Assembly (NCBI GenBank): GCA_021292165.1
Contig: JAHFWL010000408.1
Location: 62,001 to 126,000, forward strand
DNA: 64,000 nt
Reading direction: 5' to 3'
Source: Shinisaurus crocodilurus
Taxonomy: Eukaryota > Chordata > Lepidosauria > Squamata > Shinisauridae
The notes beneath the pieces are model-generated. The model was given only the letters and a program-made list of their open reading frames with translations, did no database searches and had not been told where the DNA came from. Numbering within the stretch: position 1 is the stretch's first letter; every line of letters starts with the position of its first letter. The position numbers and the translations under genes are program-made. Shown one piece after another: positions 18,774 to 63,229 of the stretch.

Positions 18774-18826
18774 GTCTTGGCTTTGCAGAGCTTCAGTAGC
18801 ACCGTTCTTTGCTGCACGGATCAAAG

Positions 18827-19240
18827 ATGGACGAGCAGGACTCTGATACCGCTGATGCAGGAAGAGGCCACGATGCCATCAGGACTGGGAGTGCCAGTGA
18901 AACCTGGGAAACAACGGGACAGAAGATGCTGGGCCAGGAAATGGTCAGCTCAGATGTGTGGTGCCAGCGTTTCAGACAGCTCTGCTACCGGGCGGCTCAG
19001 GGCCCCCGAGAGGTCTGCACCCAGCTCCACCATCTCTCCCGTCAGTGGCTGAAGCCAGAGCGACACACCAAAAATCAGATTGTGGACCTGGTAATCCTGG
19101 AGCAGTTCCTGAGCATCCTGCCCCTGGAGATGTCGAGCTGGGTGAGGGAATGTGGGGCAGAGACCAGTTCCCAGGCGGTGGCCCTGGCAGAAGGCTTCCT
19201 CCTGAGCCGGGAGGAGGAGAAGAAGCAGGAGGAGCAGCGG
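18827..19240 (+). CDS. Gene B coding exon 1: SCAN domain
   Basis: 138 codons from ATG 18,827 to donor GTGAGA at 19,241. SCAN core nearly identical to gene A ([21 protein letters not shown]). N-terminal differences are few (for example [10 protein letters not shown]). No broken codons. Confidence 0.92.
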
Positions 19241-25200: not shown

Positions 25201-28200
25201 GAGGCTCGTGTCATAGGAACATCAGAAGCTGCCTTCTACTGAGTCAGACCCTTGGTCCCTCTAGCCCAGTTGTGTTGACAGTGACAGGCAGTAGCAGCTC
25301 TCCGGGGTTTCAGGCAGGATTCTTTCCTAGCCCTACCTGGAGGCCGGGGTTCGAACCTGGGACCTTCCACGTGCAAGCCTGTGCTCTGTCCCACTGAGCT
25401 GTGGTCCCTCTCTACAGCACCTGGTCTTCTCAGGCAGTCACCCACCCTGCTTAGCTTTCGAGATCAGACGAGATCGGGCTGTTCAGATGTCCGCTACTCA
25501 GAAGATCCCGTGCCACACACCATAGGCAGAGTGGGAAAGCAGAGCCGGGCAGGCAAGGAAGATGTTCACGTGTTGAGAGGCTCACCTGGGACTGGTCCTT
25601 CCTGTATCAGGAATGCTGACCCTTTAGGGCCAGGGGTGAGGAAACTTTTCCTGTGGATGTCTGTTGACCCACAGGGGAAGTCGATTGGGGGGAGCTGCTG
25701 ATAGTGGGTGGAGCAGGAGCAAGAAGATGTCATTAGTGTCAAAACAAAGTTGAAATGGATTCAATTGACTTCATCCATAAAGAGTGAGGAACTTTTTAAA
25801 AAATATTTTTTATTCTGAATTTCAACAGAGCAAAACCAGAAAAGGAAAAAACAGAAAGAAAAGGGAAAGAAATATAATGTTCTTATATAAATTTAAATAA
25901 AGCACTTACTATAAATCCATTGATGATTCTGGCATAGACACGGAAACCTACATCCCGTGAGATTCGGTGATCAACTTATTCAAGTTTTAACTTTGTCATG
26001 TGAGAGATGTCTCTGGGAATATGCATTCCCAAATGAGTAATAAACTCTGGGCAGCATCAGAATTGACTGTTGAACATCAGCCTTTTGGGCTGGGTCAGGA
26101 AAGGCCGGGAGCCGCAGACTCAATTTGTGATTAACGTGGCAACCAGGTTAGAATGGACGGGAGCAACTTTATCCGTAAAATGCTGAGCAAGTTGATCCCA
26201 GTGGGGAGTGGGCTCCAGTGGGGAGGGTACCTTCATTCCTCAGGTCCCATGGTGGGTTTGGATACCACAGGCCCCACTGGATGGTGCTGAGTCCATAACA
26301 GTAGGAGAGAAATATGCTATCTTTGCCACCAACACCACCATAGCTCAGATGTTAAAATGAGCATATTTAACTTATGTACATAATTTATGGGACACCGAAG
26401 AAGAATAGGTTCTCTGCCACTTCTTGATGGCACTTCTCCTTTCTCTTTTTATCTGGATTTGCATCCTAATGTTGCTCCAAATAGCTCATAACATCATGCC
26501 TCAGATTGTCCACTTACCTGCACAACAACCCTGTGGGGTAGGCGAGGATAAGAGAGAGTAACCGGACCCGCAGCATCCAGAAAAATTCATGTCTGAGCTG
26601 GGAGCAGAGCCCAGGACTCTCTGGTCCCAATCCATTGCTCTTGACTACACCAACTCTTAAGTCAATGCCAGGCGAAAGAGGCTGTTTGGCACATAGTAAG
26701 ATCTGCCTCCAGTCTCGGTGTTGAGAGTTCTTCCTTTTCTCACAATAGTCAACTGAAGTCATTCAATGATTTGAAGCTCTATTTCTAACTCAGGCTTTTA
26801 CCGATTTCTTGTCTTGATTCTAGAAAGTGACTGGTGTGAAATGGAGAATGAGAGAGAACCATGTGGGATGCCACCGAAAACAAACAGATGTAAAAATAGA
26901 GAAAGGTGGAGAAAGGAAACTGAAGTAAATCCGAAGAGGAGGAATAAATGCTTTGCTTCTCAGGGCAGTGACTACAATGATATCTCAATGGAAGAAAAAC
27001 TGGCTAAAAAACAGGAAAACTATGTGTGCTCTGTGTGTGGGAAAACCATCAAGTCTCAATCAAGCCTCAATGTTCATCGTAAAATCCACACAGGGGAGAA
27101 ACCACATCAATGCTTGGAATGCGGAAGGAGATTCAGTTGGAAGTCACAGCTCGCTTCTCATCAAAGAGTTCACACAGGGGAGAAACCATATCAATGCTTG
27201 GAGTGTGGAAAGAGGTTCAGTCGGAAATCATGTGTGACTTCCCATCAAAGAATTCACACAGGGGAGAAACCACATCAATGCTTGGAATGCGGAAGGAGAT
27301 TCAGTTGGAAGTTACAGCTCACTTCTCATCAAAGAATGCACACAGGGGAGAAACCATATCAATGCTTGGAGTGTGGAAAGAGCTTCAGTCTGAAAACACG
27401 TGTGACTTCCCATCAAAGAATTCACACAGGGGAGAAACCACATGAATGCTTGGAGTGTGGAAAGAGATTCAGTTTGAAGATACATCTCACTTCTCATCAA
27501 AGAATCCACACAGGAGAGAAACCATATCAATGCTTGGACTGTGGAAAGAGCTTTAGTCAGAAGAAAAATCTTACTTCTCATGAAAGAATTCACACAGGGG
27601 AGAAACCATATCAATGCTTGGAGTGTGGAAAGAGATTCAGTTCGAAGACACAGCTCACTTCTCATGAAAGAATTCACACAGGGGAGAAACCATATCAATG
27701 CTTGGAGTGTGGAAAGAGATTCATTCGGAAGACACAGCTCACTTCTCATCAAAGAGTTCACACAGGGGAGACACCTTATGAATGCTTGGAGTGTGGAAAG
27801 AGATTCATTCGGAAGACACAGCTCACTTCTCATCAAAGTATTCACACAGGTGAGAAACCACATCAATGCTTCGAGTGTGGAAAGAGATTCATTTGGAAGA
27901 CACATCTCACTTCTCATCAAAGAATTCACACAGGGGAGAAACCATATCAATGCTTGGAGTGTGGAAAGAGCTTCAATCAAAAGATAAATCTGACTTCTCA
28001 TCAAAGAATTCACACAGGGGAGAAACCACATGAATGCTTGGAGTGTGGAAAGAGATTCACTTGGAAGATACAGCTCACTTCTCATCATAAAATTCACACA
28101 GGTGAGAAACCACATGAATGCTTGGAGTGTGGAAAGAGATTCATTCGGAAGACACAGCTCACTTCTCATGAAAGAATTCACACAGGGGAGAAACCATATC

Positions 28201-28367
28201 AATGCTTGGAGTGTGGAAAGAGATTCACTTGGAAGACACAGCTCACTTCTCATCAAAGAATTCACACAGGGGAGAAACCATATCAATGCTTGGAGTGTGG
28301 AAAGAGCTTCAATCAAAAGATAAGTCTGACTTCTCATCAAAGAATTCACACAGGAGAAACCTTATGA
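18827..28367 (+). CDS. Gene B: SCAN-KRAB-C2H2 zinc-finger protein (exons 18827-19240, 19435-19539, 24538-24664, 26824-28367)
   Basis: Same exon lengths and phases as gene A give a predicted 729-aa protein: SCAN, 35-aa linker, KRAB-A, spacer, 16 fingers. The first finger has Ile for the conserved Phe (CGKTIKSQ). The linker-KRAB intron is enlarged by CR1, hAT and SINE insertions (19,799-24,103). The frame ends at a TGA caused by a one-base deletion in the linker at about 28,351, just like gene A but at another module. Three more modules follow out of frame, then a CR1 has replaced the normal 3' flank. Likely nuclear DNA-binding regulator; a decaying or recently truncated copy is possible. Confidence 0.78.
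19435..19539 (+). CDS. Gene B coding exon 2: SCAN-KRAB linker
   Basis: 35 codons, acceptor CATTTCAG ending 19,434, donor GTAAGG at 19,540. First residue Ala instead of Val in A, C and D. Confidence 0.83.
19799..20060 (+). mobile_element. CR1 LINE, 5' part (endonuclease), split by hAT
   Basis: Begins inside the CR1 endonuclease ([31 protein letters not shown]) and breaks off after VEEGTRA where the hAT element begins. Continues at 21,820. Units A, C and D have the empty site near the corresponding GGATAAGACA. 5' truncated, as usual for CR1. Confidence 0.88.
20367..20537 (-). pseudogene. hAT transposase C-terminal remnant
   Basis: 56 codons plus stop on the - strand, containing [19 protein letters not shown] and ACVALKL. 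This resembles the conserved C-terminal region (F-S-x-L-x-x-I-K-S-x-x-R-N-R-L) of Charlie-type hAT transposases, which lies in the hATC dimerisation part. The rest of the transposase is absent. It shows the element is a deletion derivative. Confidence 0.65.
20617..20757. repeat. Inverted pair of MIR/L2-type SINE tails
   Basis: CAAGGAACCCAAGGCGGCTT near 20,619 faces its reverse complement ending near 20,757; arms of about 55 bp and a 30-bp loop. Both arms are the 3' end of the SINE seen at 9905-10158. A second inverted pair (ATATTATGCCAGT and complement) follows at about 20,785-20,855. Confidence 0.8.
20925..21265. repeat. Degenerate tandem repeat in the hAT interior
   Basis: The motif AACGGGGAGAAATGAGGGAG recurs at about 20,925, 21,060 and 21,186 (spacing about 125-135 bp), each followed by GGGAAG runs and GCAATAT.GA. 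Purine-rich on the + strand. Confidence 0.75.
21820..23945 (+). mobile_element. CR1 LINE, remainder (endonuclease end, RT, 3' end)
   Basis: Continues the copy begun at 19,799: [19 protein letters not shown], then the connector, a MIR/L2-type SINE insertion at 22,749-22,882, then RT with [32 protein letters not shown] (FADD catalytic motif), and the C-terminal part. Ends with TTTCTATGATTCTATGATTC, the typical CR1 terminus. Several frameshifts and an internal deletion near 23,030; inactive. Confidence 0.88.
22749..22882 (+). mobile_element. SINE 3' fragment inserted in CR1
   Basis: ACCTCACAGGGTTGTTGTGA, GCCGCCTTGGGTTCCTTGCA and GGCGGGGTATAAATATAAT followed by A-rich tail; interrupts the CR1 frame between KKGKK and the [11 protein letters not shown] continuation. 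Confidence 0.8.
23946..24103 (+). repeat. Second CR1 3' end (duplication)
   Basis: Repeats the last 155 bp of the preceding CR1 (CTAGGGAGGTGGTGGGCTCT to CTACTTTTCTATGAT), either a tandem duplication or a second very short insertion into the first tail. Confidence 0.75.
24104..24537 (+). other. Unit B intron before KRAB exon, with L3/CR1-like LINE tail (about 24,300-24,470)
   Basis: Returns to the conserved unit sequence. Relative to A and C it lacks the piece corresponding to 3426-3800. No gene. Confidence 0.5.
24538..24664 (+). CDS. Gene B coding exon 3: KRAB-A box
   Basis: 127 nt, acceptor TGTCCAG (ends 24,537), donor GTAAGG. The protein matches gene A's KRAB ([28 protein letters not shown]), including EI for DV and MEE for MLE. 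Confidence 0.92.
24665..25199 (+). other. Unit B intron after KRAB exon
   Basis: Conserved, with a private insert near 24,700-24,770 containing TTTATTTATTTATTTATTAT and TCGCCCATCTGGCCGGTCAC, a LINE/SINE-tail fragment also at 56,385-56,430 and 57,238-57,300. GTA microsatellite at 24,790-24,812. Confidence 0.5.
25200..25515 (-). mobile_element. Chimeric 5S/tRNA SINE (unit B copy)
   Basis: Same insertion as 5835-6165. The 5S part is shortened (about 20 nt missing in the middle) but keeps TGCTTAGCTTTCGAGATCAG. The tRNA part keeps GGGGTTCGAACCTGG on the + strand (B box complement). Confidence 0.7.
25516..26823 (+). other. Unit B intron before the finger exon
   Basis: Collinear with A and C. A private stretch at about 25,610-25,735 (GGGGTGAGGAAACTTTTCCT) interrupts the homology. 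MIR-like remnant at about 26,510-26,660. No gene. Confidence 0.5.
26824..28367 (+). CDS. Gene B coding exon 4: spacer plus 16 C2H2 fingers
   Basis: Phase-1 start after CTTGATTCTAG. Fingers from about 27,024 with TGEKP linkers. Helix contact positions again nearly constant outside -1 and +3; module 5 (SLKTRVTS) and module 6 (SLKIHLTS) are private to B. The ninth linker is TGETP. Terminates TGET-Leu-stop after a single-base loss at 28,351-28,357. Confidence 0.92.
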
Positions 28368-35838: not shown

Positions 35839-36599
35839 TGTGAAGGATCAGCACCTGGATCCTTTGCGTGAGTTTGGGTTAACCAGTGCAGTGTTACAGC
35901 CGGTACAAGCAAAAGAAACCACCTAAGAGGTTTTCTCACAAACAAAAGGAAACTCAGCCTTTGAACTGCCAAATAAGGCTTTTATTTATTTACACAGGAT
36001 ATGGAGCGGAACTAACAGCTTTCTAGGAAATACTACAACGTCAATAAGACCTGACGTGACCTTTAAGTTTATCATTGACAGGCTCCCAGGCTAGTGCATT
36101 TGGATTAGTCAGTTACCTTAGATCAGAGACGTCACGCTAGTCAGTTTCAGCCTAACTCCGGGTCTGTCCGATCCGGGGAAGGAAACAGCTTACTCCAGCT
36201 GCTGCTGGAGGGTGGTTCGTACTCAAAAGCACCCTGGGTTTTCAACAACCAACAAAAGGAGGGGAGAGGGGTTTTCTACCTCTGTGTTTTCCACTCTCCC
36301 GCCCCTTAGGTCAGGTGGGGCTATTGCCTGCCCCTTCGTGTCAGGTGGGCTTATTCCTGCCCGGGAAGAAGGTGATGTATTGGATACTTTACAGCTCTTT
36401 GAGACTGCCCTGTTAGGTTGATGGTCTTGATGGTCCTTTCCTGGGTTTTGTGGATTACAAGCGAGATCCTCCTTTGCTGGAATGCCGGTCTGTCTGGCTG
36501 CTTCCCTGTAACTCAATCTCCCCTTCTCGCCCCCCTCCCCTGGAGGACGGAGACTGGTGTGTGCGTGTACATGTATACTCGTGTCAGGCTTTCTCCACA
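35839..36599 (-). repeat. Gmr1-like element 3' LTR (761 bp)
   Basis: On the element's strand it starts TGTGGAGAAAGCC and ends CCTTCACA. A purine tract (CAAAGGGAAGGG, complement of 36,600-36,611) abuts it as a polypurine tract. This copy lacks the pol insert found in the other LTR. Confidence 0.9.
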
Positions 36600-36611
36600 C
36601 CCTTCCCTTTG
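36600..36611 (-). promoter_or_regulatory. Polypurine tract
   Basis: CAAAGGGAAGGG on the minus strand immediately upstream of the 3' LTR; primes plus-strand DNA synthesis in LTR elements. Confidence 0.7.
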
Positions 36612-36650
36612 AAGAAAGATGGCATTGGGGCCCACCACCCCAATCCCTAT

Positions 36651-38516
36651 CTAGCTGTCTCCCACTGAGAAAGCCCGGGACAACCCATCTGCCACAATGT
36701 TGTCCTTGCCCTTGATGTGTTCCACTGAAAAATCAAAATCTTGCAGGGCTAAGCTCCACCGCAGTAACTTCTGGTTGGATCCTTTCACCCTGTCCAACCA
36801 ACACAAGGGGGAATGGTCGGTCTGCAACAAGAACCGGCGTCCCCAAAGATAGGGGCGAAGCTTGGTCACTGCCCACACTATTGCCAAACATTCCTTTTCG
36901 ACAGTGGCCAAGTTCCGCTCCCGGGGCAAAAGCTTTTTACTCAAGTAGGCGACAGGGCATAGCCCTTGCCCTGGCCGTTCCTGCAGCAAGACGGCCCCCA
37001 TTCCCACTTCTGAGGCATCCGTCTGCAGGACAAAGGGGGCTTCGAAGTCAGGCGCTTGCAGCACAGGGGCTGCCATCAAGCTGGCCTTCAATCCTTCGAA
37101 TGCTGCCTGGCAAGCGGCTGACCACTGGACTTTGACGGGCTGCCACTTTTTACACAAATCCGTCAGAGGGGCGGCTAGCTGGCTAAAGTGGGGCACAAAT
37201 TTACGATAGTAGCCAGCCAGCCCTAAAAAAGCTTGCACCTGTTTCTTCGTCTGGGGCTGGGGCCAGGTGCGGATTGACTCGATCTTTGCCTCCAGGGGCT
37301 TGACACTACCTCCCCCCACCCTATGCCCTAGATACTCTACCTCCCCCCGCCCAACCTGACACTTCTTAGCCTTCACAGTCAGCCCCGCTTCCTGAATCCT
37401 CTGAAATACGTGGCAGACATGCTGCAAATGCTGTTCCCAGGTGGAGCTGAAAATGGCGATATCATCCAAGTACGCACAGGCGAACTCCCCCAACCCATTT
37501 AGCATCCCGTTTACCAGCCTTTGGAAGGTAGCCGGACCATTCCGGACCCCGAATGGCAGGGTGGTGAACTGAAACAACCCTAGATGGGTCACAAATGCGG
37601 ATTTCAACACAGCATCCGGATCGAGGGGAACTTGCCAATAACCTTTGGTCAGATTCAGGGTAGTGATGTACTTGGCCCCCCCTAACCGTTCCAACAACAC
37701 ATCCATGTTTGGGATGGGGTAGGGATCAGGGACAGTCACTTTGTTAATCTTCCGATAATCTACACAGAACTGAACCCCCCCATCCTTCTTGGCTACTAAC
37801 ACTATCGGAGAGAACCAGGGGCTAGAGCTGGGTACAATGACTCCAAGATCTAACATGGCTTGGATTTCGTCCACAATGACCTGGGCATGGGGCCCCACCG
37901 CCCGGTAGGGTAGGGACTGTATAGGGGGGCTATTCCCCGTCTCGATGGTGTGTTGCACGAGAGTAGTGCATCCCGGGCGGTCGGAAAACATGGGCTGGAA
38001 GTCTTCTAGGACCTGGGTAATTTGTCTCTGTTGCTGTTCAGACAGGGAGGGCGACAATTGGATCTCATCCAACCCTCCCCCTATCCCCCATTCTGCCAAC
38101 AAGTCCCTGTCAGAGGTTTCTTGTTCTACACATCCGTATATGCCCCCTACCTTCGTTCCCCGTCCCACATACAATTTTAACATATTTACATGAAATACTT
38201 TTTGCTTTCCTGGCTGTCCCGGGAAAGCCACTTGATAATTAACCCTCCCCGACCTTCCAATCACGGTCCCCGGGCCCTCCCATTTTAAACACAATTTGTC
38301 CGTTTTCAGGGGGCGCAGTACCAGCACTTGGTCCCCCACTTCAAAAGTCCGTGGCACGGCCGTCCGGTTGTACCACGCGCTCTGCCGTTGTTGCGCTGCT
38401 CCGAGGTGCTGCTGCGCCGCCTCTCGCACCTCCCGAAGGACAGTTTGAAGATGTTGCATGAAGGCATGAACCGGCATGGAAGGTTCTGCTGCAACCCCCT
38501 CCCATTCCGCCCGCAA
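36651..38516 (-). CDS. pol: Gmr1-like pol, downstream part: integrase C-terminal region, RT, RNase H
   Basis: 621 codons open from the first Met at 38,516. Residues about 45-115 (WYNRTAVPRTFEVGDQVLVL, HVNMLKLY) are the C-terminal domain of integrase. RT spans about 200-375 with KKDGGVQFCVDYRKIN, LPFGVRNGPATFQ and the YLDD motif at 349-352. Motif A reads TLNL where Gypsy RTs have TLDL: Asn at residue 288 replaces a catalytic Asp, so polymerase activity should be lost. RNase H (about 490-615) keeps its acidic set: TDAS (500), KECLAI (542), TDHS (567), VADGLS (610). It follows the upstream frame through a shift near 38,520 and ends about 50 bp from the LTR. Confidence 0.9.
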   Translation of the reverse strand: MRAEWEGVAAEPSMPVHAFMQHLQTVLREVREAAQQHLGAAQQRQSAWYNRTAVPRTFEVGDQVLVLRPLKTDKLCLKWEGPGTVIGRSGRVNYQVAFPGQPGKQKVFHVNMLKLYVGRGTKVGGIYGCVEQETSDRDLLAEWGIGGGLDEIQLSPSLSEQQQRQITQVLEDFQPMFSDRPGCTTLVQHTIETGNSPPIQSLPYRAVGPHAQVIVDEIQAMLDLGVIVPSSSPWFSPIVLVAKKDGGVQFCVDYRKINKVTVPDPYPIPNMDVLLERLGGAKYITTLNLTKGYWQVPLDPDAVLKSAFVTHLGLFQFTTLPFGVRNGPATFQRLVNGMLNGLGEFACAYLDDIAIFSSTWEQHLQHVCHVFQRIQEAGLTVKAKKCQVGRGEVEYLGHRVGGGSVKPLEAKIESIRTWPQPQTKKQVQAFLGLAGYYRKFVPHFSQLAAPLTDLCKKWQPVKVQWSAACQAAFEGLKASLMAAPVLQAPDFEAPFVLQTDASEVGMGAVLLQERPGQGLCPVAYLSKKLLPRERNLATVEKECLAIVWAVTKLRPYLWGRRFLLQTDHSPLCWLDRVKGSNQKLLRWSLALQDFDFSVEHIKGKDNIVADGLSRAFSVGDS

Positions 38517-41262
38517 AAGGTCCCCTTAGTTCCCTCCCAAACATCAGCTCGTTGGGGGAGAATCCCAGGCTCTCCTGGGGGGAGTCCTGGTATGCAAACA
38601 ACAGGTAGGGGAGCGCTTGATCCCAAGTCCCGGGATGCTTAGCCGCGTAGGCACGAATCATTTTTTCCAAAGTCTGGTTGAACCGCTCCACCAGCCCATT
38701 AGTCTCATGATGATAGGGCACCGAAGTTAGGTGCTCCACCCCCCCCCCCAATTCCCACATCTTTTTAAACAATTTGGACACGAATCCCGTGCCACAGTCC
38801 GAAACCACTGTGCGGGGCATTCCTAAGCGGGCAAAAAGAGAGAGGAGAGTCTTAGCCAGGCTAGTAGCAGAGATGGAGGCTAGGGCAAAAGCCTGGGCAT
38901 AACGAGTGGCAAAGTCAACGACAGTCAGTATGAACTTCTTCCCCGTCTTGGTGGGGGGATTCAAGGGTCCCACAATGTCCAACCCTATTCTCTCAAAGGG
39001 GGTGCCCACTATGGGTAGGGGTTGAAGGGGGGCTTTCGGGTGGTCCCGGTTGTGTCCCACCCGCTGACAGACATCACAGGACCGACAGTACTCGTTGACT
39101 TCGTTCGCCACCATGGGCCAGTAAAAACCTTCTGTCACTCTGGCAAGTGTCCGCTTTTGTCCCAAGTGGCCCCCCCAGGCTACATCATGGGCTAACTGCA
39201 GTACAGCCTGGCGATACCTGGAGGGCACAACTAATTGCCTCTTTCGTGACTGGAGACCAAGTTCCATTTTTGGGCTAAACTCCCTGTAAAGGGCCCCCGC
39301 TTCCCAAAAGAACCTCTCTGACAGGTCTACTGCCCCACATGCTTGGCCGGCCCGATCCCGGCATTCTTGGAGGGACGGGTCATGCCGCTGTTCTTCCTGG
39401 AAAGCCTTTTGAGTCCCAAAATCTTGGGCCATTGGGGCGAACCCCCCTTGGCCATCCTCCTTAACCGGAGCCGGGGCAGGCGGCAACGAACGTTTGACTG
39501 CCGGTGCCGCTTTAGCGCGACTGGGTTTGAGAGTCGGGGAACTGGGAGGCTGCGGGGCAGGGGCTTGTCTGGCTTGACGACGTGTCACTACCCCCACCTT
39601 GACCTGGGCAGCCCGGAACGCTATGTCGTTCCCAATAATGATCCCCCACTCTTGCTTCCCATGCACGATGACATCCACCTCTCCTTCCCATCCCCTGTAC
39701 TTGACCCAAACCCGGGCGAGGGGTACAGCTATGTTGGGAGAATTATAAGGTTTTATGGCGCAGGTGTGTCCTTTTAGCATCTGGCTCTTCTTTACCTTAC
39801 TCCGAGGTAAAGCAGTAATGTCCGCCCCGGTGTCCCTATACCCCACATGGGAAACATTGTTCACAGAGATGGACTCACAGAATTTGTTCTGGCTCCAACG
39901 CAGTTGCTCTGGTGACGCAATTTTCATCAGAGACGCTTGTGAGATGGCCCCAAGGGAATGCTGTCCTCCGCTTAACCGGGGCGGTGTCGCATCCTCCGTT
40001 TCTTCCTCCAGGGATGAGACCGACTGCTGGTCCTCCTCCTGTTCCTCCGGCTGCCGGGTCTCGGGAGCGAGCACCCTTCCCACTTTGCCCGGGTTTGTTT
40101 TGGGGTTGCGGTTCTTCGCGAGGAGTTTGGGGCAACTTCTCTTGAGGTGACCCAATTCATTACAATAAAAACAGCCACCGGTGCTGGTGCTGGGGCTCTC
40201 CTTGGGCTTACTTGGGACTCCCTCCCGAAGTCTGGGGTTGCCCTTCTCCGCACCCCCTCTGGCCCCGTTCCGACTGGGATTGCCGCCCTTGCCTCCCTTG
40301 GGCTGCCGATACAGCCCCATCTGATCTGCCAGTTTGCCCATTTCCCGACAGTTTGGGGGATCCCGGCCTCGCACAGCCGTGGCCAAATCCTCCGGAATAG
40401 TGGCACAGAACTGTTCCTGGATCAGGAGCTCCCGTACCTCTGCCAAGGTGGTCCTCCCGGTAGCCCCGATCCACGCATCCCAAACCTGCCCCAGATGCGC
40501 CATCCAGGAGGCATACGTGTCCCCTGGGGAGGGCTGCCCGTAACGAAATTTACGGCGACAGTGTTCGGCTGTGAGGGCAAAACGCTCCCTCACAGCTTCC
40601 TTGAATGCAGCATAGTCCAAGGGGGCAGTTTGGGTATGAATGCCTAAGAGATCGGCCAGCTCCCCGCTGACCTGTGTCCACAAGGCAGACATCCTTAAAT
40701 TGTCTGGCATCCTTTGTTCCTGGCAGGCGGCTTCTAACAGTGTGAAAAAGATCAACACATCCTGCCCAGGTTTGTAGGTGGGAAACTGTTTCCTGTCCCA
40801 TTTGGGGGTCGGAGTGCTCCTGCTCTGGGGTGCAGTGGATCCCCCCCCTCCGGTGCCCGCAGTCAGCCTCGCTAATTCCAGCTGCATCTGCAGCGCCGCT
40901 TGCTGATGCTTGATCATCTCCTGCTGATGTCGCATCACCTCCCTGGTCTGTTGCCAATTCAGGTTGGGGAAGAGAGCATCCAAATCTTCCCCTCCTATGG
41001 CTCCACCAGCAACCCCTCCGTCGAGGTCCTCCTCCAACCCGGGGTCTATCCTGTCGCCTCTCCTGAGGCTGCTTGTTAAGCTGGGGCAGCCCCACTGTTT
41101 GGGTCCCTGCCCCGCCAGCAAGGATGAGGGGGCTCCCTCCCCCTCTTGGTGTTTAGTCTTCGGCCGCACAGTCCACTCCATTGTGGAGACCTGGCTCCCC
41201 TCTCTTCTTGGGGTCTCTGGACTGCTCCCTAGCTCTAGTTGTTCCTGGCTAAGGCTATTCAT
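38517..41262 (-). CDS. gag-pol: Gmr1-like gag-protease-integrase reading frame
   Basis: One frame opens at Met 41,262, about 105 bp inside the 5' LTR, and remains open to 38,341 (973 codons), the last 60 or so being out-of-frame noise. Order: Gln-rich coiled stretch (100-133), capsid C-terminal region (220-318) that resembles SCAN, zinc knuckle C-X2-C-X4-H-X4-C (364-377), protease DTGADIT (477-483), integrase zinc-binding H692/H699/C729/C732, catalytic core D762, D822, E859. Gag and pol are in one frame with no programmed shift visible. Homology to integrase stops at about residue 914; the next residues are in the frame that begins before 38,516. A one-base indel is the simplest cause. Confidence 0.9.
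40309..40605 (-). other. SCAN-like capsid region of the Gypsy gag
   Basis: Gag residues about 220-318. Aligned by eye with the host SCAN exons: gag VRELLIQEQFCATIPEDL against host [18 protein letters not shown], then AVRGRDP against WVRECGA, and MGKLADQMGL against [10 protein letters not shown]; upstream, YGQPSPGDTYASWM against [14 protein letters not shown]. Spacing matches with minor gaps. Consistent with published derivation of SCAN from Gmr1-like capsid. Confidence 0.8.
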
Positions 41263-41339
41263 TTTGCTTTTTCCTGACTACTTCCCAGCAATTCGCTAGC
41301 CTGCCCTAGACCCTGTTAGTTCCGTCCGTTAGCTATAGT

Positions 41340-41366
41340 TTCCAATTGTCCCGTCGTCTGCCACCA
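41340..41366 (-). promoter_or_regulatory. Putative primer-binding site
   Basis: On the minus strand the bases directly after the 5' LTR read TGGTGGCAGACGACGGGAC. TGG complements a tRNA CCA end, as in most LTR-element primer sites. The tRNA species is not assigned. Confidence 0.55.
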
Positions 41367-42609
41367 TGTGAAGGACCAGCACCTGGGTCCTTTGCGTGAG
41401 TTCGGCGCTTAACGGGTTAACCGGTGCAGCGTTACAGCCCGTACAAGCGAAAGAAACCACCTAAGAGGCCTTCTCACAAACAAAAGGAAACTCAGCCTTT
41501 GAACTGCCAAACAAGGCTTTTATTTTATTTACACAGGATATGGAGCGGAACTAACAGCTTTCTAGGAAATACTACAACATCAATAAGACCTGACATGACC
41601 TTTAAGTTTATCAATGACAGGCTCCCAGGCTTTTGGGTGGTCCCGGTTGTGTCCCACCCGCTGACAGACATCACAGGACCGACAGTACTCGTTGACTTCG
41701 TTCGCCACCATGGGCCAGTAAAAACCTTCTGTCACTCTGGCAAGTGTCCACTTTTGTCCCAAGTGGCCCCCCCAGGCTACATCATGGGCTAACTGCAGTA
41801 CAGCCTGGCGATACCTGGAGGGCACAACTAATTGCCTCTTTCGTGACTGGAGACCAAGTTCCGTTTTTGGGCTAAACTCCCTGTAAAGGGCCCCCGCTTC
41901 CCACAAGAACCTCTCTGACAGGTCTACTGCCCCACATGCTTGGCCGGCCCGATCCCAGCATTCTTGGAGGGACGGGTCATGCCGCTGTTCTTCCTGGAAA
42001 GCCTTTTGAGTCCCAAAATCTTGGGCCATTGGGGCGAACCCCCCTTGGCCATCCTCCTTAACCGGAGCCGGGGGAGGCGGCAACGAACGTTTGACTGCCG
42101 GTGCAGTCAGTTAATTAGTCAGTTACCTTAGATCAGAGACGTCACGCTAGTCAGTTTCAGCCTAACTCCGGGTCTGTCCGATCCGGGGAAGGAAACAGCT
42201 TACTCCAGCCGCTGCTGGAGGGTGGTTCATACTCAAAAGCACCCTGGGTCCCCAACAACCAACAAAAGGAGGGGAGAGGGGTTTTCTAACTCTGTGTTTT
42301 CCGCTCTCCCACCCCTTAGGTCAGGTGGGGCTATTGCCTGCCCCTTCGTGTCAGGTGGGCTTATTCCTGCCCGGGAAGAAGGTGACGTATTGGATACTTT
42401 ACAGCTCTTTGAGACTGCCCTGTTAGGTTGATGGTCTTGATGGTCCTTTCCTGGGTTTTGTGGATTACAAGCGAGATCCTCCATTGCTGGAATGCCGGTC
42501 TGTCTGGCTGCTTCCCTGTAACCCAATCTCCCCTTCTCGCCCCCCTCCCCTGGAGGACAGAGACTGGTGTGTGCGTGTACATGTATACTCGTGTCAGGCT
42601 TTCTCCACA
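41367..42609 (-). repeat. Gmr1-like element 5' LTR (1243 bp, carries internal pol insert)
   Basis: Same ends as the 3' LTR (..TTTCTCCACA at 42,609). Longer by about 480 bp because of the pol piece at 41,631-42,104. The stretch 41,367-41,630 is more diverged from its partner (roughly 13 substitutions and two gaps counted by eye) than the stretch after 42,112. Confidence 0.9.
41631..42104 (-). repeat. Duplicated pol fragment inside the 5' LTR
   Basis: 474 bp nearly identical (about five differences seen) and co-oriented with 39,032-39,507, which encodes the protease-integrase spacer and integrase zinc finger. Junctions: LTR sequence CTCCCAGGC runs into TTTTGGGTGG; CTGCCGGTGC runs into AGTCAGTTA. 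The left LTR has TAGTGCATTTGGATTAGTCA at this place. Confidence 0.92.
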
Positions 42610-43019
42610 ATTATTATTATTATTATTATTGCAAAAAGGGATTTTTTAAAAAGGGTATTTGTTGTGGTTACATACAGAGCTGTTCTTGGTGACTGAAAGG
42701 ATTACTCTGTATTAGTGGTACGCCAAAAACAAACAGGAGACGGCTTGAGTGCAGATGGAGAGGAACTCCTAGTAGTGGATACCACCAAGCCCTGGTATGT
42801 GCCTACAGTCCTTTATATTTAGGGGCAGTGAAGCAGGCAAAGAAACTGCCTCTATTCAATCTTTTTTTTTGTTGCCCAGCAGAGCTCTTTTGGGTTGTCT
42901 GGAGCCTATTATATGCTGGCCCCAAGGACATCCTGGACCCCGCTGAGGCCCGCTACAATATATTTGCTAGGCACTGACAGAAAAAATCTCTTGCATCCCC
43001 CGGGACTTGGACTCCAATG
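42610..43019 (+). other. Unit C intron 1 after the Gypsy insertion
   Basis: Opens with an ATT microsatellite (42,610-42,630) and then follows unit A from about 515 onward. No gene. Confidence 0.6.
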
Positions 43020-43800
43020 TTAGAGCTGACAGTGTATTGCCATCAATACGCTGATGACGCACAGCCCTTTTTCTCCTTTTCATCTTCAGCAGCTGAGGCC
43101 GTGGATGTGCTAAACCGGTGCCTGGCCACGACAATGGACTGGATGAGGGCTAACAAACTGAGGCTCAATCCAGACTGGACTGAGATGCAGTCAGTGGATG
43201 GTTCCCCTGACCGGATGGAGGGTGTTCAACCTGTAATGGATGGGGTGGCACTCCCCTTGAAGGAGCAGGTTCGTAGCTTGGGGGTCCTCCTTGGGCCATC
43301 TTTGTCACTTGAGGATCAAGTGGCCTCAGTGGCACAGAGTGCCTTCTACCAGCTCTGGCTGGTATCCCAGGTTGCCCATATTTGGACAGGGATAGCCTGG
43401 ATTCAATAATCTATGTTCTGGGAATCTCTAAATTAGACTACTGTAATGCACTCTACATAGGGCTGCCATGGAAGACTATTCAGAAGCTGCAGCTTGTCCA
43501 AAATGCAGTAGCCAAACTAAGAGGCAGGACTAGTAGGTCTAAACATATAACACCAGTTCTGGCCCATTTGCTTCCGTGCCCGATTCCAGTTGCTTGGTCC
43601 CGCGTCCAACATCTGAGTCCTTCCTTTGCTTGCCACCTCCAGGGAGGCCTGGAGGGCGGTAACAAACGGGGGCCTTTTCTGTGGTAGCCCCCAACTGTGC
43701 AACGAGCTCCACACTGAGGTGGCGCCAGCTCTACTATCCTTTAGGGGCCTTGTTATACCTGCCCCCTCTGTAGAGGCAGTGAACAACTCTAAATAGCACA
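43020..43800 (+). mobile_element. L2-like LINE fragment, unit C intron 1
   Basis: Same insertion and almost the same sequence as in unit A, including HQYADDAQP and LDYCNALYIGLP. The in-frame stop seen in A after LRLNPD is Trp here (LNPDWTEMQ). Still broken at TGIAWIQ-stop. Confidence 0.8.
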
Positions 43801-44318
43801 TGGGGTGGTGGTGGTTATATCAACTGGTTAAACAGGGCGTGTCGTATTAACTGTTTTTTAGTCATTTGGGTCGTATTTAAATTTGGTTTTTAAAACAATG
43901 TCCAGGCAGTTTTGCCTAAGAGAGGCTGAAGGAGAATACAGCAGTAGCAGGATGCCTGATGGGGAGGGGTGTGGTGGGGGCTTTGGAAGAGGAATGGGCA
44001 GGGGGCTCAATGGGAGGCTGAGAGTGGGAGCTGGTTTGGACGGGGAGGAACGTTGGGGTGCGCGGAGGATGCTGCATCCTCTGACATTTAAGCCCATGAA
44101 AGGAGTTTTGGTTGGTGGCTCCCAGGCAAAGACACCTCCCCAACCCACGTCTCCATTTTCTCTTTGAGTCTTGGCATGTGCCTGCCTTTCCTTCTGTAAC
44201 GGGACCTGGTTGCTACCTGGAGTCCTTGCCCTTCTTGCCTTGACAGGGTAATAATTCTTTTACAGGTCTTGACTTTGCAGAGCTTCATTAGCACCGCTCT
44301 TTGCTGCACAGATCAAAG
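43801..44318 (+). other. Unit C intron 1, 3' part and SCAN exon 5' UTR
   Basis: Conserved spacer ending in TTCTTTTACAG at about 44,265; the exon's 5' UTR runs to the ATG at 44,319. Confidence 0.5.
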
Positions 44319-44732
44319 ATGGACAAGCAGGACTCTGCTACTGCTGAAGCAGGAAGAGGCCACGATGCCATCAGGACTGGGAGTGCTAGTGAAACCTGGG
44401 AAACTACTGGACAGAAGATGCTGGGCCAGGAAATGGTCAGCTCAGATGTGCGGCGCCAGCGTTTCAGGCAGCTCCGCTACCAGGAGGCTCAGGGCCCCCG
44501 AGAGGTCTGCACCCAGCTCCACCATCTCTCCCGTCAGTGGCTGAAGCCAGAGCGACACACCAAAACTCAGATGGTGGACTTGGTAATCCTGGAGCAGTTC
44601 CTGAGCATCCTGCCCCTGGAGATGTCGAGCTGGATGAGGGAATGTGGGGCGGAGACCAGTTCCCAGGCGGTGGCCCTGGCAGAAGGCTTCCTCCTAAGCC
44701 GGGAGGAGGAGAAGAAGCAGGAGGAGCAGCAG
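44319..44732 (+). CDS. Gene C coding exon 1: SCAN domain
   Basis: 138 codons; donor GTGAGA at 44,733. Private changes: Glu to Lys at residue 3 (MDKQDS), Arg-Arg before the SCAN core (DVRRQRF), Val-to-Met in SWMRECGAE, Asn-to-Thr in HTKTQMVDL. Core otherwise intact. Confidence 0.93.
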
Positions 44733-46309
44733 GTGAGAGCATTGCATCCTGGGAGCTCCAAGGGGTCAAGCCTGTGAGCGGGGACATCCCAAAACTCTCT
44801 CTGCAAATTACCCGACTTTTTACTGAAATTCTCTGAGGAGGGATCTCCCATGCCCCCTGCCCCAAGAGTATCATTTCTGTATTCTCTTCTCATGGCATGT
44901 CTTGGATCCACATTACGTTTCAGGTAGAGCATCTGTGTGCCGAAGTGGGGCCTGATTTCCGTGCCGCCTGCAGAGTCCCCTGCGAACAGGCATCGAGCAG
45001 GAGAGTGATGGAGGTGCCACCTCACAGGGTAAGTATTAGCTGCGGGGTTGGGGGAGCATGAAAGAAATCCTTGGGCTGCTTTTATTTCCCCCCCCCCCTC
45101 AGGTATTTTTGGTGGGTGGGGGGAAGAAACCTGTCTCCAGCCTTTTTCACAGTTATTCAATAACTGAAGACGTTAAACATGGAAATCTGCACTTTGAATT
45201 GTGGCCAAGAGCCCAACTGGGGAGAGATGCATTTCACCCAATCGCCCTAAAGCATCCAGACTGCAAATAAAGGATAAGACACCTCCGAATGCACATGCCT
45301 GTGTTCTTACACTTGCATCACTTAAGCTGCAGTCCTGTGTATTTTCCTGAGAAGGAAGTCCAGTTGTGTTCAAAGGGGCTTATTAGCTAGTAAGTGTGTT
45401 CAGGATGTCCTCTTGCCGAGGATGTGCCTCCAGGGGCCGGGGGGGGGGGGGGCTTGTGGTAGTGGGAAAAGTGATCCTTAGGCAGCTGTGTTTGTGATGG
45501 GCATACATAGCTTACATAGCTATACACCATCTCCAGGATCAGAGGCAGTTGCTGGGGAACATGGGCGGGAGGTTGTTGTTGCACTCATGTCCTGCTTGTG
45601 AGTTTCCATGTGCAGTTGGTTGACCTGTGTAAACAGAAGAGTGATGGACATTTGGCCTGATCCAGAATGGCCCTTCTTATGGTCATATGTTCGTAGGACT
45701 GTCATCTTAATCTCCAAGACAAGCATACGCTCCCGGTTTCCTTTCTCTCTCAGAGGGGATGGAGTGATGCCAGGAATCAATCCTCAACCACCGCTTCTTC
45801 TTTGTGATGGTGTGGGAGCGGATCAGGTCGGGAGAAGGATCCCTTGGGTGCCCCTGTCCCCCGTTCACCTCGCTGGGCAATAGCCCTCGGATGCTGTTCT
45901 TCCCCTGTAATTGGTCTTGAGAGGCGTGCTTCCCCAGATCCTGAAGGTTGCCATCATGAGTAGTAGCCCTTTGGTAACCTCTAAAAGGAAGGCTATAAAT
46001 GCCACTCCTGGATGCTTAAATCGTCCACTATGCCCAGCCAACTCACTTGAAGCAGCCTTTTGGATTTTGTTACTGGACGATCTTTACATTAGGTGTGAGG
46101 AGGAAATGTTGATGTTTTTCCCATCCAGGGTCTGGTGCCCTTTGAGGAGATCGCTGTGTCCTTCAGCAAGGAGGAGTGGGCGCTGCTGGATCCTGACCAG
46201 AGAGCCCTGCACAGGCAAATCATGGAGGAGAATCGTGGGATCGTGGCCTCTCTCGGTAAGACTCCCTCTTTCCCTGGCTGACAATAATATCTCTTTACAA
46301 ATGCAGTGA

Positions 46310-46344
<35 letters not shown>

Positions 46345-49300
46345 GGAATGTTAGTAATTTTCCCCCCATTCTCTATATTCATTGAAGCATTTTTAGGCTA
46401 CCTTTCGGTCATGTCCCTCAAAAGTGGCATATGCAAGCAAAGGAGGATGCATTAAAATAATCCAGTCATTATACACTGTTACAACAGGAGCCTCAGGACA
46501 CCGGGCTCAGCCATACCAGAAACATTTCCAGGAGACACATTCAGACCTCTCAGGAGTCTCAAAAACCAGCAGCACAACCACCGTGATTAGGGAAAGGCAG
46601 CCGAGGACAGGCACGCTTTTAAGGCCTGCAGTGGAGGGGCCCGTGTGCAATTCGATGGTGTATCCCAGCATCTCAGGATCCCTTCTTTTCGGTCTAGCAG
46701 GATTTGTCCTCTCAGGAGGAGGGAGGCTCGTGTCATAGGAACATCAGAAGCTGCCTTCTACTGAGTCAGGCCCTTGGTCCCTCTAGCCCAGTAGTGTTGA
46801 CAGTGACAGGCAGTAGCAGCTCTCCTGGGTTTCTTGCAGGATTCTTTCCTAGCCCGACCTAGAGAAGCCAGGGATCGAACCTGCAACCTTCCACGTGCAA
46901 AGCATGTGCTCTATCCCACTGAGATGTGGTCCCTCTCTACAGCTCCTGGTCTTCTCAGGCAGTCATCCACCCAAGCACTCACTAGGCCCAACCCTGCTTA
47001 GCTTTCGAGATCAGGCTGTTCAGGGCTGTTCAGATGTCCGCTACTCAGAAGGTCCCGTGCCACACATCATAGGCAGAGTGAGAAAGCAGAGCCGGGCAGC
47101 CAAGGATGATGTTCACGTGTTGAGAGGCTCACCTGGGACTGGTCCTTCCTGTGTCAAGACAAAGTTGGAATGGATTCAATCGACTTTATCCATAAAGAGT
47201 GAGGAACTTTTTTAAATTTATTTTTTATTCTGACTTTCAACAGAGCAAAACCATAAAAGGGAAAAAAAGAAAGAAAAGGGAAAGAAATATAATGTTCTTA
47301 TATAAATTTAAATAAAGCACTTACAATAAATTCATTGATGATTCTGGCATAGACACGGAAACCTACAGCCCGTGAGATTCAGTGATCAACTTATTCAAGT
47401 TTAACTTTGTCATGTGAGAGATGTCTCTGGGAATATGCATTCCCAAATGAGTAATAAACTCTGGGCAGCATCAGAATTGACTGTTGAACATCAGCCTTTT
47501 GGGCTGGGCCAGGAAAGGCCGGGAGCCGTAGACTCAAGCTGTGATTAACGTGGCAACCAGCTTAGAATGGACAGGAGCAGCTTTATCCGTAAACTGCTGA
47601 GCAAGTTGATCCCAGTGGGGAGTGGGCTCCGGTAAGGAGGGTACCTTCATTCCTCAGGTCCCATGGTGGGTTTGGATACCACAGGCTCCACTGGATGGTG
47701 CTGAGTCCATAACGGTAGGAGAGAAATATGCTATCTTTGCCACCAACACCACCATAGCTCAGACGTTAAAATGAGCATATTTAACTTATGTACATAATTT
47801 ATGGGGCACTGAAGAAGAAAAGGTTCTCTGCCACTCTTGATGGCTCTTCTCCTTTCTCTTTTTATCTGGATTTGCATCCTAATGTTGCTCCAAATAGCTC
47901 ATAACATCATGCCTCACACTTACCTGCACACTTACCTGCACACTTACCTGCACAACAACCCTGTGAGGTAGGCGAGGATAAGAGAGAGTAACCGGTCCCG
48001 CAGCATCCAGAAAAATTCATGTCTGAGCTGGGAGCAGAGCCCAGGACTCTCTGGTCCCAATCCATTGCTCTTGATTTCACCAACTCTAAGTCAATGCCAG
48101 GCGAAAGAGGCTGTTAGGCACATAGTAAGAACTGCCTCCAGTCTCGGTGTTCAGAGTTCTTCCTTCTATCACAATAGTCAACTGAAATCATTCAATGATT
48201 TGAAGCTCTATTTCTAACTCAGGCTTTTACCGAATTCTTGTCTTCATTCTAGAAAGTGACTGGTGTGAAATGGAGAATGAGAGAGAACCATTTGGGATGT
48301 TCCCGAAAACAAACAGATGTAACAATAGGGAACCTCAGAGAAGGGAAAGTGAACTAAATCAGAAGAGGAGGAATAAATCCTTTGTTTCTCAGGGCACTGA
48401 TTATGATGATATCTCAGTGGAAGAAAAACTGGCTAAAAAACAGGAAAATTATGTGTGCTCTGTGTGTGGGAAAACCTTCAAGTCTAAATCAAGCCTCAAT
48501 GTTCATTGTAAAATCCATACAGGGGAGAAACCACATCAGTGCTTGGAGTGTGGAAACAGTTTCAGTAAAAAGACAAATCTCACTACTCATGAAAGAATTC
48601 GCACAGGGGAGAAACCATATCAATGTTTAGAGTGTAGAAACAGATTCAGTTGGAAGTCACAACTCTCTTCTCATCAAAGAATTCACACAGTGGAGAAACC
48701 ACATGAATGCTTGGAGTGTGGAAAGAGATTCAGATCGAAGACACAGCTCACTTCTCATGAAATAATTCACACAGGGGAGAAACCACATCAATGCTTGGAG
48801 TGTGGAAAGAGATTCATTCGGAAGACACAGCTCACTTCTCATCAAAGTATTCACACAGGGGAGAAACCATATCAATGCTTGGAGTGTGGAAAGAGGTTCA
48901 GTCGGAAAACATGTGTGACTTCCCATCAAAGAATTCACACAGGGGAGAAACCATATCAATGCTTGGACTGTGGAAAGAGCTTTAGTCAGAAGAAACATCT
49001 TACTTCTCATGAAAGAATTCACACAGGGGAGAAACCACATGAATGCTTGGAGTGTGGAAGGAGATTCAGTCAGAAGACACATCTCACTTCTCATGAAAGA
49101 ACTCACACAGGGGAGAAACCACATCAATGCTTGGAGTGCAGAAAAAGATTCAGTAGAAAGACACAGCTCACTTCTCATCAAAGAACTCACACAGGGGAGA
49201 AACCATATGAATGCCTGGAGTGTGGAAAGAGATTCAGTAAGAAGACAACTCTCACTTCTCATCAAAGAACTCACACAGGGGAGAAACCACATCAATGCTT

Positions 49301-49847
49301 GGAGTGCGGAAAGAGATTCAGTAAGAAGACAACTCTCACTTCTCATCAAAGAACTCACACAGGGGAGAAACCACATCAATGCTTGGAGTGTGGAAAGAGA
49401 TTCAGTTCGAAGACACATCTGACTTATCATCAAAGAACTCACACAGGGGAGAAACCATATGAATGCTTGGAGTGCGGAAAGAGATTCAGTTGGAAGACAC
49501 ATCTCACTACTCATCAAAGAACTCACACAGGTGAGAAACCATATCAATGCTTGGAGTGTGGAAAGAGCTTCAATCAAAAGATAAGTCTGACTTTTCATCA
49601 AAGAATTCACACAGGGGAGAAACCATATCAGTGCTTGGAGTGTGGAAAGAGCTTCAATCAAAAGATAAGTCTGACTTTTCATCAAATAATTCACACAAGG
49701 GAGAAACCATATCAGTGCTTGGAGTGTGGAAAGAGCTTCATTCGGAAGACACATTTGACTTCTCATCAAAGAAGTTACACAGTTGTGAAACCATATAAAT
49801 GCTTGGATCATGAAAAGAACTTTGATTTGAGGAAAAGCTACACGTAA
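44319..49847 (+). CDS. Gene C: SCAN-KRAB-C2H2 zinc-finger protein (exons 44319-44732, 44924-45028, 46129-46255, 48253-49847)
   Basis: The only unit with an uninterrupted finger exon to the array end. Exons join in frame to 746 aa: SCAN (about 44-128), linker (139-173), KRAB-A (174-215), spacer, then 15 good C2H2 modules and two degenerate ones. Nuclear DNA-binding regulator by family; target not predictable without computation. Its first intron carries the antisense Gmr1-like element, so transcription of gene C and of the element would oppose each other. The terminal TAA is shared with gene A but not with B, where the frame runs further, so it is a derived shortening. Confidence 0.88.
44924..45028 (+). 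CDS. Gene C coding exon 2: SCAN-KRAB linker
   Basis: 35 codons with donor GTAAGT at 45,029. Reads [18 protein letters not shown]; Pro-to-Arg and Pro-to-Ala changes relative to the other copies. Confidence 0.85.
45029..46128 (+). other. Unit C intron between linker and KRAB exons, with L3/CR1-like LINE tail (about 45,500-45,695)
   Basis: Full-length version of this intron without large private insertions; useful as the empty-site reference for the insertions in A (TIR element), B (CR1) and D (LINE). G runs at 45,440-45,452. No gene. Confidence 0.6.
46129..46255 (+). CDS. Gene C coding exon 3: KRAB-A box
   Basis: 127 nt, acceptor CCATCCAG, donor GTAAGA. As in A and B (EI for DV, MEE for MLE) but with Cys to Arg in [10 protein letters not shown]. 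Confidence 0.92.
46256..46724 (+). other. Unit C intron after KRAB exon, first part
   Basis: GTA microsatellite at about 46,313-46,345, longer than in A or B. Otherwise collinear; no gene. Confidence 0.5.
46725..47045 (-). mobile_element. Chimeric 5S/tRNA SINE (unit C copy)
   Basis: Same insertion as 5835-6165 with the same order: 5S-like (about 47,030-46,940), tRNA-like (GGGATCGAACCTGCAACCTT on the + strand, near 46,872), tail to about 46,725. Confidence 0.7.
47046..48252 (+). other. Unit C intron before the finger exon
   Basis: Collinear with A and B. Private triplication of the 12-mer ACTTACCTGCAC at 47,918-47,954. MIR-like remnant to about 48,080. Ends CTTCATTCTAG. Confidence 0.5.
48253..49847 (+). 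CDS. Gene C coding exon 4: spacer plus finger array
   Basis: Modules start at [17 protein letters not shown]. Module 2 has Arg for the last His ([11 protein letters not shown]). Modules 10 and 11 share the helix KKTTLTS, modules 14 and 15 share QKISLTF. Module 16 ends RSYTVVKP (Tyr for the last His) and module 17 is degenerate ([15 protein letters not shown]). DNA-contact residues vary mainly at -1 and +3, so the predicted site would be repetitive triplets. Confidence 0.94.
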
Positions 49848-59501: not shown

Positions 59502-60589
59502 GTGAGACCCCCCCCTTTTGAATTGGCGGGAGCATCTGCTGATTTGGGCTGGTGTCAGAGGAGCTGGGAGGTGCAAGCTGGAACAACCCCCCCATTTCAC
59601 CCCATTTCTTTCTCTCCTCTCCCGTAAAGCCAGGAGAACCGTTTGGTTTGGGGGGGGGGATTAAAGGAGGTCTGCGAGGAATCCAGCAGGTTCGTGGACT
59701 CTGCACCCGGACACCGGCTAAAATCGTTGCCCCCCACCCACCCACCCCCAAATCGGACCCTGTGGCTCCGGGCTCCCCAACGCGGCTCCTCCTAGGGGTT
59801 TCTGCGCGTGGCCGAGATGCTCCCCTGGTTCTGGGCTGGCTTGGCTGGACCGTCCAAAGCAAACCCAATTGGCCCGAGGGGAAGGATGAGGTGCCCCCCA
59901 CCCCCGCCCAGGGCTGGCCCCACCATGGGGCAGAGGGAGGTGTCGCCCCCGGCAGCTAATTCGGGGTGCCCTGAAAGTCCAGTGACTGAGTATTTCCCAC
60001 CCTCTTCTTGCTCTTCTCCTGCCAGGGATGTGGGGAGACGCGCTTTGGCAGGGCAGGGAGCAAAGTGTCTTGTGTCAGCCCTAATGCACTCCTGAACAGA
60101 GAGAGAGCAGTCTGGTCTTGATTATTATTGCAAAAGGGGAATTTTTAAAAGGATATTTGTTGTGGTTCCATACAGAGATCTCCTGGGCGATTGACAGGAT
60201 TGCTCTTTCTTAGTGGTACGCAACAAAACAAAAACAGGAGACGGCTTGAGTGCAGATGGAGAGGAACTCCTAGTAGTGGATGCCATCAAGCCCTGGTATG
60301 TGCCTACAGTCAGGTATATTTAGGGGCAGTGAGGGAGGCAAAGAAACTGCCACTATTCAGTCTTGTATTTGTCGCCCAGCAGAGCTATTTTGGGTTGTCC
60401 AGGGCCTACTATATGCTGGCCCCAAGGACATTCTGGACCCCTCTGAGGCCCGCTACAATACAGTATATTTGCTAAGAACTTCCAGGAAAAATCTCTTGCA
60501 TTCACCAGGACTTGGACTTCAATGTTATAGCAGTTAAATCAGGTGAGGTACCCAGAGCTCAGCCTGGTCAAATTTTCTTGCATGAGTTT
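59502..60589 (+). other. Unit D intron 1, 5' part
   Basis: Collinear with the other units, no Gypsy insertion. No gene. Confidence 0.5.
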
Positions 60590-62125: not shown

Positions 62126-62611
62126 GTGGTGGTGGTGATGTCAACTTGTTCAACAGTTCACATTGTACTAACTTGTTTTTAGTCATTTGAGTCCTATTTA
62201 AATTCAGTTTTTAAAACAATTTCCAGGTAGTTTTGCCTAAGAGAGGCTGAAGGAGAACAGAGCAGTAGCAGGATGCCTGATGGGGAGGGGTGTGGTGGGG
62301 GCTTTGGAAGAAGAATGGGCAGGGGGCTCAACGGGAGGCTGAGAGTGGGAGCAGGTTTGGATGGGGAGGAACATTGGGGTGCAAGGAGGATGCTGCATCC
62401 TCTGACTTTGCTCCCATGCAAAGAACCTCCCAACCTAGTCTCTGGTTTCTCTTTGAGTCCTGGCATGTGCCTGCCTTTCCTTCTGGAACGGGACCTGCTT
62501 GCCACCTGGAGTCCTTGCCATTCCTTCTTGCCCTGACAGGGTAATGATTCTTTTACAGGTCTTGGCTTTGCAGAGCTTCATTAGCACCGCTCTTTGCTGC
62601 ACGGATCAAAG
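62126..62611 (+). other. Unit D intron 1, 3' part and SCAN exon 5' UTR
   Basis: Conserved spacer with a small deletion around 62,415-62,445 relative to the others; acceptor TTCTTTTACAG at 62,559. Confidence 0.5.
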
Positions 62612-63025: not shown

Positions 63026-63229
63026 GTGAGAGCATTGCATCCTGGGAGCTCCAAGGGGTCAAGCATGTGAGGGGGAGGGGATATCCCAAAACTCAATCTA
63101 TGAATTACTCAACCTTTTCTGGAAGTTATCTGAGGAGGGATGTCCCCTGCCCCCTGCCCCCTGCCCCAAGAGTCTATCATTTTTAAATTCTCTTCTCATG
63201 GCATGTCTTGGATCCACATTACATTTCAG

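Follow-up and report, generated by a model that had tools for sequence, protein, structure and literature searches.

A Gmr1-like retrotransposon among SCAN-KRAB-zinc-finger genes of Shinisaurus crocodilurus: a probably ordinary insertion, an ancient gag-SCAN relationship and an excess of related gag copies near SCAN genes

We analyzed a 64,000-nucleotide stretch of the Shinisaurus crocodilurus genome (hereafter the window; contig JAHFWL010000408.1, C1356:62001-126000 in our contig numbering), in which a Gmr1-like long terminal repeat (LTR) retrotransposon occupies positions 35839-42609 of the minus strand amid a tandem cluster of SCAN-KRAB-zinc-finger genes. The gag protein of this element and the SCAN domains of its neighbors are homologous, and a prediction made from the sequence letters (the original prediction) had read their meeting as possible host-element conflict, or as a capsid-SCAN interaction, acting in cis. 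Our analysis favors a simpler explanation. In all likelihood, the element is an ordinary, partly decayed insertion in permissive zinc-finger territory, and the SCAN domain goes back to an ancient capture. The most useful new item concerns the genome rather than the window: the Gmr1-like family is in excess in SCAN gene territory, through separate insertions.

The element was delimited by LTR alignment, by its flanks and by its coding domains. Both the 3′ LTR (35839-36599, minus strand, 761 bp) and the 5′ LTR (41367-42609, minus strand, 1243 bp) have the form TG...CA, and ATTAT is present on either side of the element. Since this motif sits within an ATT-rich microsatellite, the length of the target repeat is uncertain. 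The two LTRs differ by 26 mismatches over 761 aligned positions (96.6% identity, Kimura two-parameter distance 3.5%), and their alignment contains 482 gap columns. The approximately 482 extra bases of the 5′ LTR are almost entirely a copied stretch of the element's own integrase (477 bp, 41628-42104, minus strand; 98.7% identical to 39031-39507), which is missing from the 3′ LTR. A possible cause is template switching during reverse transcription; no comparably long insert is present in the 5′ LTRs of the eight related copies on contig C7 described below. Apart from this fragment, no second copy of the element was found in the 64-kb window. TGG opens the sequence immediately after the 5′ LTR, as expected of a primer-binding site, and we placed the putative site at 41349-41366 (minus strand) by position only. 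AAAGGGAAGGG precedes the 3′ LTR.

The first open reading frame (ORF1; 38341-41262, minus strand, 973 aa) codes for gag with a CCHC knuckle, a protease-like DTGAD motif recognized by eye, and the H2C2 and core parts of integrase. It terminates inside the integrase, and ORF2 (36651-38516, minus strand, 621 aa) continues in a different frame with the C-terminal region of integrase, reverse transcriptase (RT) and RNase H. The integrase is therefore encoded ahead of RT, a Ty1/copia-like order given as a hallmark of the Gmr1 lineage in the consulted part of PMC2774666. As judged from sequence, the LTRs with their target repeat, this gene order and the SCAN profile in gag together confirm the element as a Gmr1-like member of Ty3/gypsy, as originally proposed. 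It resembles other such elements in the last two of these features and differs from them in the frame change within integrase and in the integrase fragment of the 5′ LTR. Because open frames reach 1585 aa among the best 150 gag matches in the genome, compared with 978 aa at the window copy, the break between ORF1 and ORF2 probably represents decay of this particular copy. Wider searches were uninformative: ORF1 residues 130-400 yielded 6086 candidates in a protein database but none at E 0.001, and when viral contigs were scanned, ORF1 and ORF2 gave three and two pattern matches, respectively, and no relative.

The relationship between gag and SCAN, initially proposed from an alignment by eye of the capsid C-terminal region with the SCAN exons of all four window genes (A to D), stands on firm ground. 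ORF1 residues 233-316 (40315-40566, minus strand) match the Pfam SCAN family with 34.9 bits (cut-off 27) and E 1.3e-8. Searched alone, the capsid piece matches SCAN with 38 bits and E 1.5e-9 and no further Pfam family up to E 10. A comparison with solved structures gave four matches up to E 1, every one of them a SCAN domain (best E 1.4e-4), and a nine-SCAN profile, built from the four window SCANs and five SCAN fragments, aligns with gag at an hhalign probability of 93.9% (E 1.6e-7). Since the profile searches and hhalign agree, the by-eye alignment is correct. Structure prediction led nowhere, as AlphaFold models reached a mean pLDDT (predicted local distance difference test) score of 41.3 for the capsid alone and 62.8 for the C-terminal part of the capsid when the four SCANs of the window were supplied as the alignment. 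The latter model is circular, because SCAN sequences fed its alignment; a PDB search with it gave 59 matches up to E 10 and none at 0.001, the top one being a SCAN dimer (E 0.88), with the C-terminal domain of Arc ranked eighth. The homology is real, but it has already been established for the Gmr1-like clade, so that the locus is a clean example and not a new principle. An origin of SCAN from Gmr1-like gag is stated in the available parts of two reviews (PMC3424704, PMC4592553). As far as the accessible text of the respective papers goes, frogs are reported to have the SCAN profile in over 50% of Gmr elements only (PMC4131045), the Ty3 capsid is described as a double SCAN fold (PMC6525542), and the capsid profiles of a 2024 survey missed human SCAN proteins (PMC11011659).

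How old this relationship is can be judged from identities in one alignment that included seven of the eight chosen genome SCANs (L003 was left out). The window SCANs are on average 43.1% identical to five mammalian SCANs and 62.0% identical to the seven other SCANs of the genome. The gags of seven copies share on average only 17.8% with the window SCANs, compared with 24.8% with the mammalian and 24.9% with the genome SCANs. By these values the host SCANs would be ordinary SCANs, and the resident element would be a distant cousin, no nearer to its neighbors than to other SCANs. Since the window SCANs resemble gag (17.8%) far less than they resemble their mammalian counterparts (43.1%), the idea that a cluster SCAN is a recent derivative of the resident element was rejected. 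The original prediction that the SCAN domain derives from this element family thus retains its homology part; as to descent, these identities would allow it only for an event that predates the split between mammals and the host lineage.

The insertion itself is younger than the gene cluster. The element is antisense to gene C, and its end falls 1.7 kb upstream of the SCAN exon of that gene (44312-44732, plus strand, splice sites by eye). Empty insertion sites are present in two paralogous units, at 16800-16812 (plus strand) in copy B, where two matches to the element flanks overlap, and at 60121-60129 (plus strand) in copy D, likewise defined by matches to the flanks. Copy A has the right flank without the element and an adjoining deletion on the left. 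Units A and C are 94.9% identical (503-2944 versus 42616-45041), and their 5.1% divergence exceeds the 3.4% divergence of the LTR pair. Both observations place the insertion after the duplication; an insertion before the gene duplications was rejected because of the empty sites in B and D. The antisense orientation was correctly noted at the outset, and the accompanying placement in intron 1 of gene C is likely. A splice-acceptor-like site recognized by eye 7 bases ahead of the ATG (44319) of the SCAN exon implies an upstream non-coding exon. In addition, each of the four units contains, to the left of the insertion point, sequence with a CpG observed/expected ratio of at least 0.6 (window median 0.34), and this CpG-raised stretch is a plausible promoter.

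The genes surrounding the element form four tandem units. In genes A, B and C, the SCAN exon is followed on the same strand by a KRAB A-box and then by a C2H2 finger array; gene D has its SCAN exon alone inside the window, with the finger array beyond it. The SCAN exon regions of A (2195-2641), B (18809-19258) and D (62594-63043) are all on the plus strand, and in that of B the stop comes after a likely splice donor. Substitution rates suggest constraint: dN is 0 to 0.010 and dS 0.073 to 0.201 over 42 KRAB residues of A, B and C, and dN is below dS in all six pairs of SCAN exons. In gene C, the KRAB A-box lies at 46135-46257 (plus strand; PF01352, E 2.7e-16), followed by the finger exon at 48253-49847 (plus strand, acceptor by eye). 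The KRAB exon, present in genes A to C, is absent from the original description of these genes as SCAN-ZNF. The same description had presented gene C as the sole copy whose finger array is open, which is incorrect. Gene A retains 16 canonical fingers and one degenerate finger in 536 open aa and gene B 16 canonical fingers in 517 aa, compared with 14 canonical and two degenerate fingers in 525 aa in gene C. What sets gene C apart is that A and B shift frame ahead of their last fingers, whereas C alone stays in one frame to the end that gene A shows in the shifted frame. The genes share the SCAN exon, KRAB A-box, C2H2 array and tandem clustering with amniote SCAN-KRAB-zinc-finger genes and show nothing beyond that known kind, apart from a finger position discussed below.

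One might argue that the cluster proteins are defenses against the Gmr1-like family, with fingers that bind its DNA, KRAB boxes that silence it and the copy near gene C as a trace of the conflict. We regard this as unlikely, even though it fares best among the alternatives. In its favor, the KRAB boxes of A, B and C differ at no more than one of 42 residues. Among the 48 listed fingers (7371-8978, 26814-28364 and 48270-49844), variation is greatest at helix positions -1 and 3 (2.58 and 2.54 bits, respectively). Position 6, however, is Ser in 37 of the 48, so that a position which usually makes contact is nearly fixed. The binding itself was assessed with a crude table of base preferences, by scanning arrays A, B and C as sub-arrays of 5 to 16 fingers. 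A single scan of the element out of 15 was suggestive: for 12 fingers of gene C at 39717-39752, scores at least as high as the observed one came from 4 of the 100 shuffles, from none of the 17 control stretches and from 2 of the 60 permuted arrays. Because 15 tests were made, this result is not significant, and in the other 14 scans between 18 and 96 of 100 shuffles scored at least as high. The primer-binding site was picked beforehand because a lizard SCAN finger protein is predicted to bind there, as told in the available part of PMC4592553. In 12 scans with the same crude code, its best rank was within the top 6.4% of positions (gene C, nine fingers), and the observed score was reached by 1 to 37 of 40 permuted arrays, the value of one belonging to 12 fingers of gene C. 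Overall, nothing in the finger scans against the element was significant, which comes close to the outcome named in the original prediction as speaking against it, namely motifs no commoner in such copies than in shuffled DNA, although a code this crude cannot be decisive.

The distribution of related gag copies was analyzed in the whole genome (2.19 Gb, 1490 contigs). The best 150 of 3632 SCAN candidates and the best 150 of 3725 gag candidates were scored; all 150 SCANs exceeded the cut-off and all 150 gags were at least 89% identical, while candidates of either search may belong to the family sought in the other and the four window SCANs fall outside the SCAN list. The Gmr1-like family is abundant. 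The 11-Mb main SCAN cluster (C7:11.3-22.4 Mb) contains 8 of the best 150 gag matches versus 0.76 expected (Poisson P 1.4e-6). Within 25, 50, 100 and 250 kb of a listed SCAN there are 2, 5, 5 and 8 of the 150 versus 0.39, 0.59, 0.88 and 1.52 expected (P 0.058, 3.5e-4, 0.002 and 1.7e-4, respectively). On contig C759 and at C7:14.55 Mb alike, a SCAN match with the same score is accompanied by a gag match at near-identical spacing. C759 is probably a second haplotype of that locus; therefore, genome counts need de-duplication. Without C759, the 50-kb count becomes 4 of 149 (P 0.003), and the two matches within 25 kb are probably a single insertion present on two contigs. To take clumping into account, we analyzed eight large contigs by means of 6582 overlapping 11.1-Mb windows, 351 5-Mb bins and circular shifts. 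The densest of the overlapping windows begins at C7:10.75 Mb (nine copies), only 0.40% of them having at least eight. The 15 SCAN-bearing bins hold 18 of 129 copies (1.20 versus 0.33 per bin), a value that none of 350 circular shifts reached.

The eight C7 copies all have distinct 5′ junctions (flanks of 1.4-1.6 kb for seven of them and of 102 bp for L042), which makes them separate insertions. Their flanks cross-match only in one out-of-register stretch of 249 bp and two of less than 50 bp, and the identity of their LTRs to those of the window element ranges from 78.6 to 96.1%. The association between gag copies and SCAN genes at the megabase scale is non-random and apparently arose through separate insertions. 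LTR elements are also concentrated in zinc-finger gene territory in mouse, where the endogenous retrovirus load of young KRAB-zinc-finger clusters is known and, in the accessible text of PMC12575710, largely attributed to segmental duplication. The C7 copies differ in this respect, and loading by segmental duplication of the mouse type was rejected for them on account of their eight differing junctions. No title or abstract in our literature search, which mostly could not reach subscription journals, reports a gag excess around SCAN genes. We also took random 2-kb samples, 40 from the C7 cluster and 30 from elsewhere, a number without power for the elements themselves: Gmr1/gypsy coding sequence (2 of 40 versus 0 of 30), Gmr1 LTRs (2 versus 1) and LINE-like (long interspersed element) coding sequence (3 versus 1) did not differ significantly, while zinc fingers occurred in six cluster samples and in none from elsewhere (P 0.034).

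It could be supposed from this excess, from the position of the densest window and from the distinct junctions that Gmr1-like elements are attracted to SCAN clusters and that their integration is targeted or guided. We consider this quite improbable. The counts come from best-150 lists of one element family, and at 25 kb, where they are smallest, they shrink to what is probably one insertion. Moreover, a second hotspot (C2:121.75-132.85 Mb, perhaps pericentromeric) holds 8 of the best 150 gag matches but none of the 150 listed SCANs, and no gag of the list falls in two regions rich in listed SCANs (C824 and C7:87-94.6 Mb), although well under one is expected in each. A comparably low probability attaches to a trans-acting effect in which SCAN proteins, by virtue of the shared fold, bind the capsids of Gmr1 and hinder their assembly, the locus being an incidental witness. 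Such binding would fit the homology, the double SCAN fold ascribed to the Ty3 capsid and the domain-swapped SCAN dimers related together with the idea itself in PMC4592553, but gag and the window SCANs are just 18% identical, and that review, in its available part, calls experimental evidence lacking. The weakest proposal, very improbable in our judgment and drawn by analogy, is that the elements repeatedly and independently enter the clusters of the genes that captured their capsid since SCAN proteins bound to the zinc-finger genes of their own clusters would capture incoming Gmr1 capsids by means of the common fold and guide integration. HIV integration is guided by capsid-binding host proteins. 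According to the consulted part of PMC11397430, lineage-specific gene clusters are anchored in a repressive compartment by ZNF274, a SCAN-KRAB protein of humans.

A few features of the gene cluster stand apart from these questions. In gene A, a 5S rRNA-like sequence (6043-6160, minus strand; RF00001, 48.2 bits, E 5.8e-7) that separates the KRAB exon from the finger exon is perhaps a 5S-derived SINE (short interspersed element). Approximately 1.4 kb between the SCAN and KRAB exons of the same gene (3813-5188) have no counterpart in copy C and are GC-rich, with CpG observed/expected up to 0.85. Another CpG-rich kilobase, between genes A and B (11401-12400, observed/expected up to 0.87), has no counterpart of at least 250 bp elsewhere in the window.

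We thus return to the ordinary insertion as the most probable reading of the locus. A copy of an abundant retrotransposon would have used its own integrase to enter an ATT-rich microsatellite that lies upstream of a SCAN exon, and probably within intron 1, in a gene of an already duplicated cluster, and would have partly decayed since. The likeness between gag and SCAN would reflect capture of the capsid C-terminal domain before mammals and the host lineage separated, and the nearness of the two would follow from high copy number and from zinc-finger clusters being territory that tolerates and keeps insertions. The proposed conflict or capsid-SCAN interaction in cis found no support: with an abundant family, and with both proteins presumably acting in trans, the shared locus would give no special access, and a functional link between the element and gene C is probably lacking. 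Two points weigh against this explanation. Our analysis did not locate exon 1 of gene C, and the gag excess rests on a single family; if Gmr1 alone showed it, tolerance would not suffice as an explanation.

The wider pattern is potentially important, as close relatives of the window element are concentrated near SCAN genes, apparently through separate insertions. If comparison with a control family were to reveal the excess as particular to Gmr1, the relation between SCAN proteins and the capsids to which they are akin would become testable in genomes.

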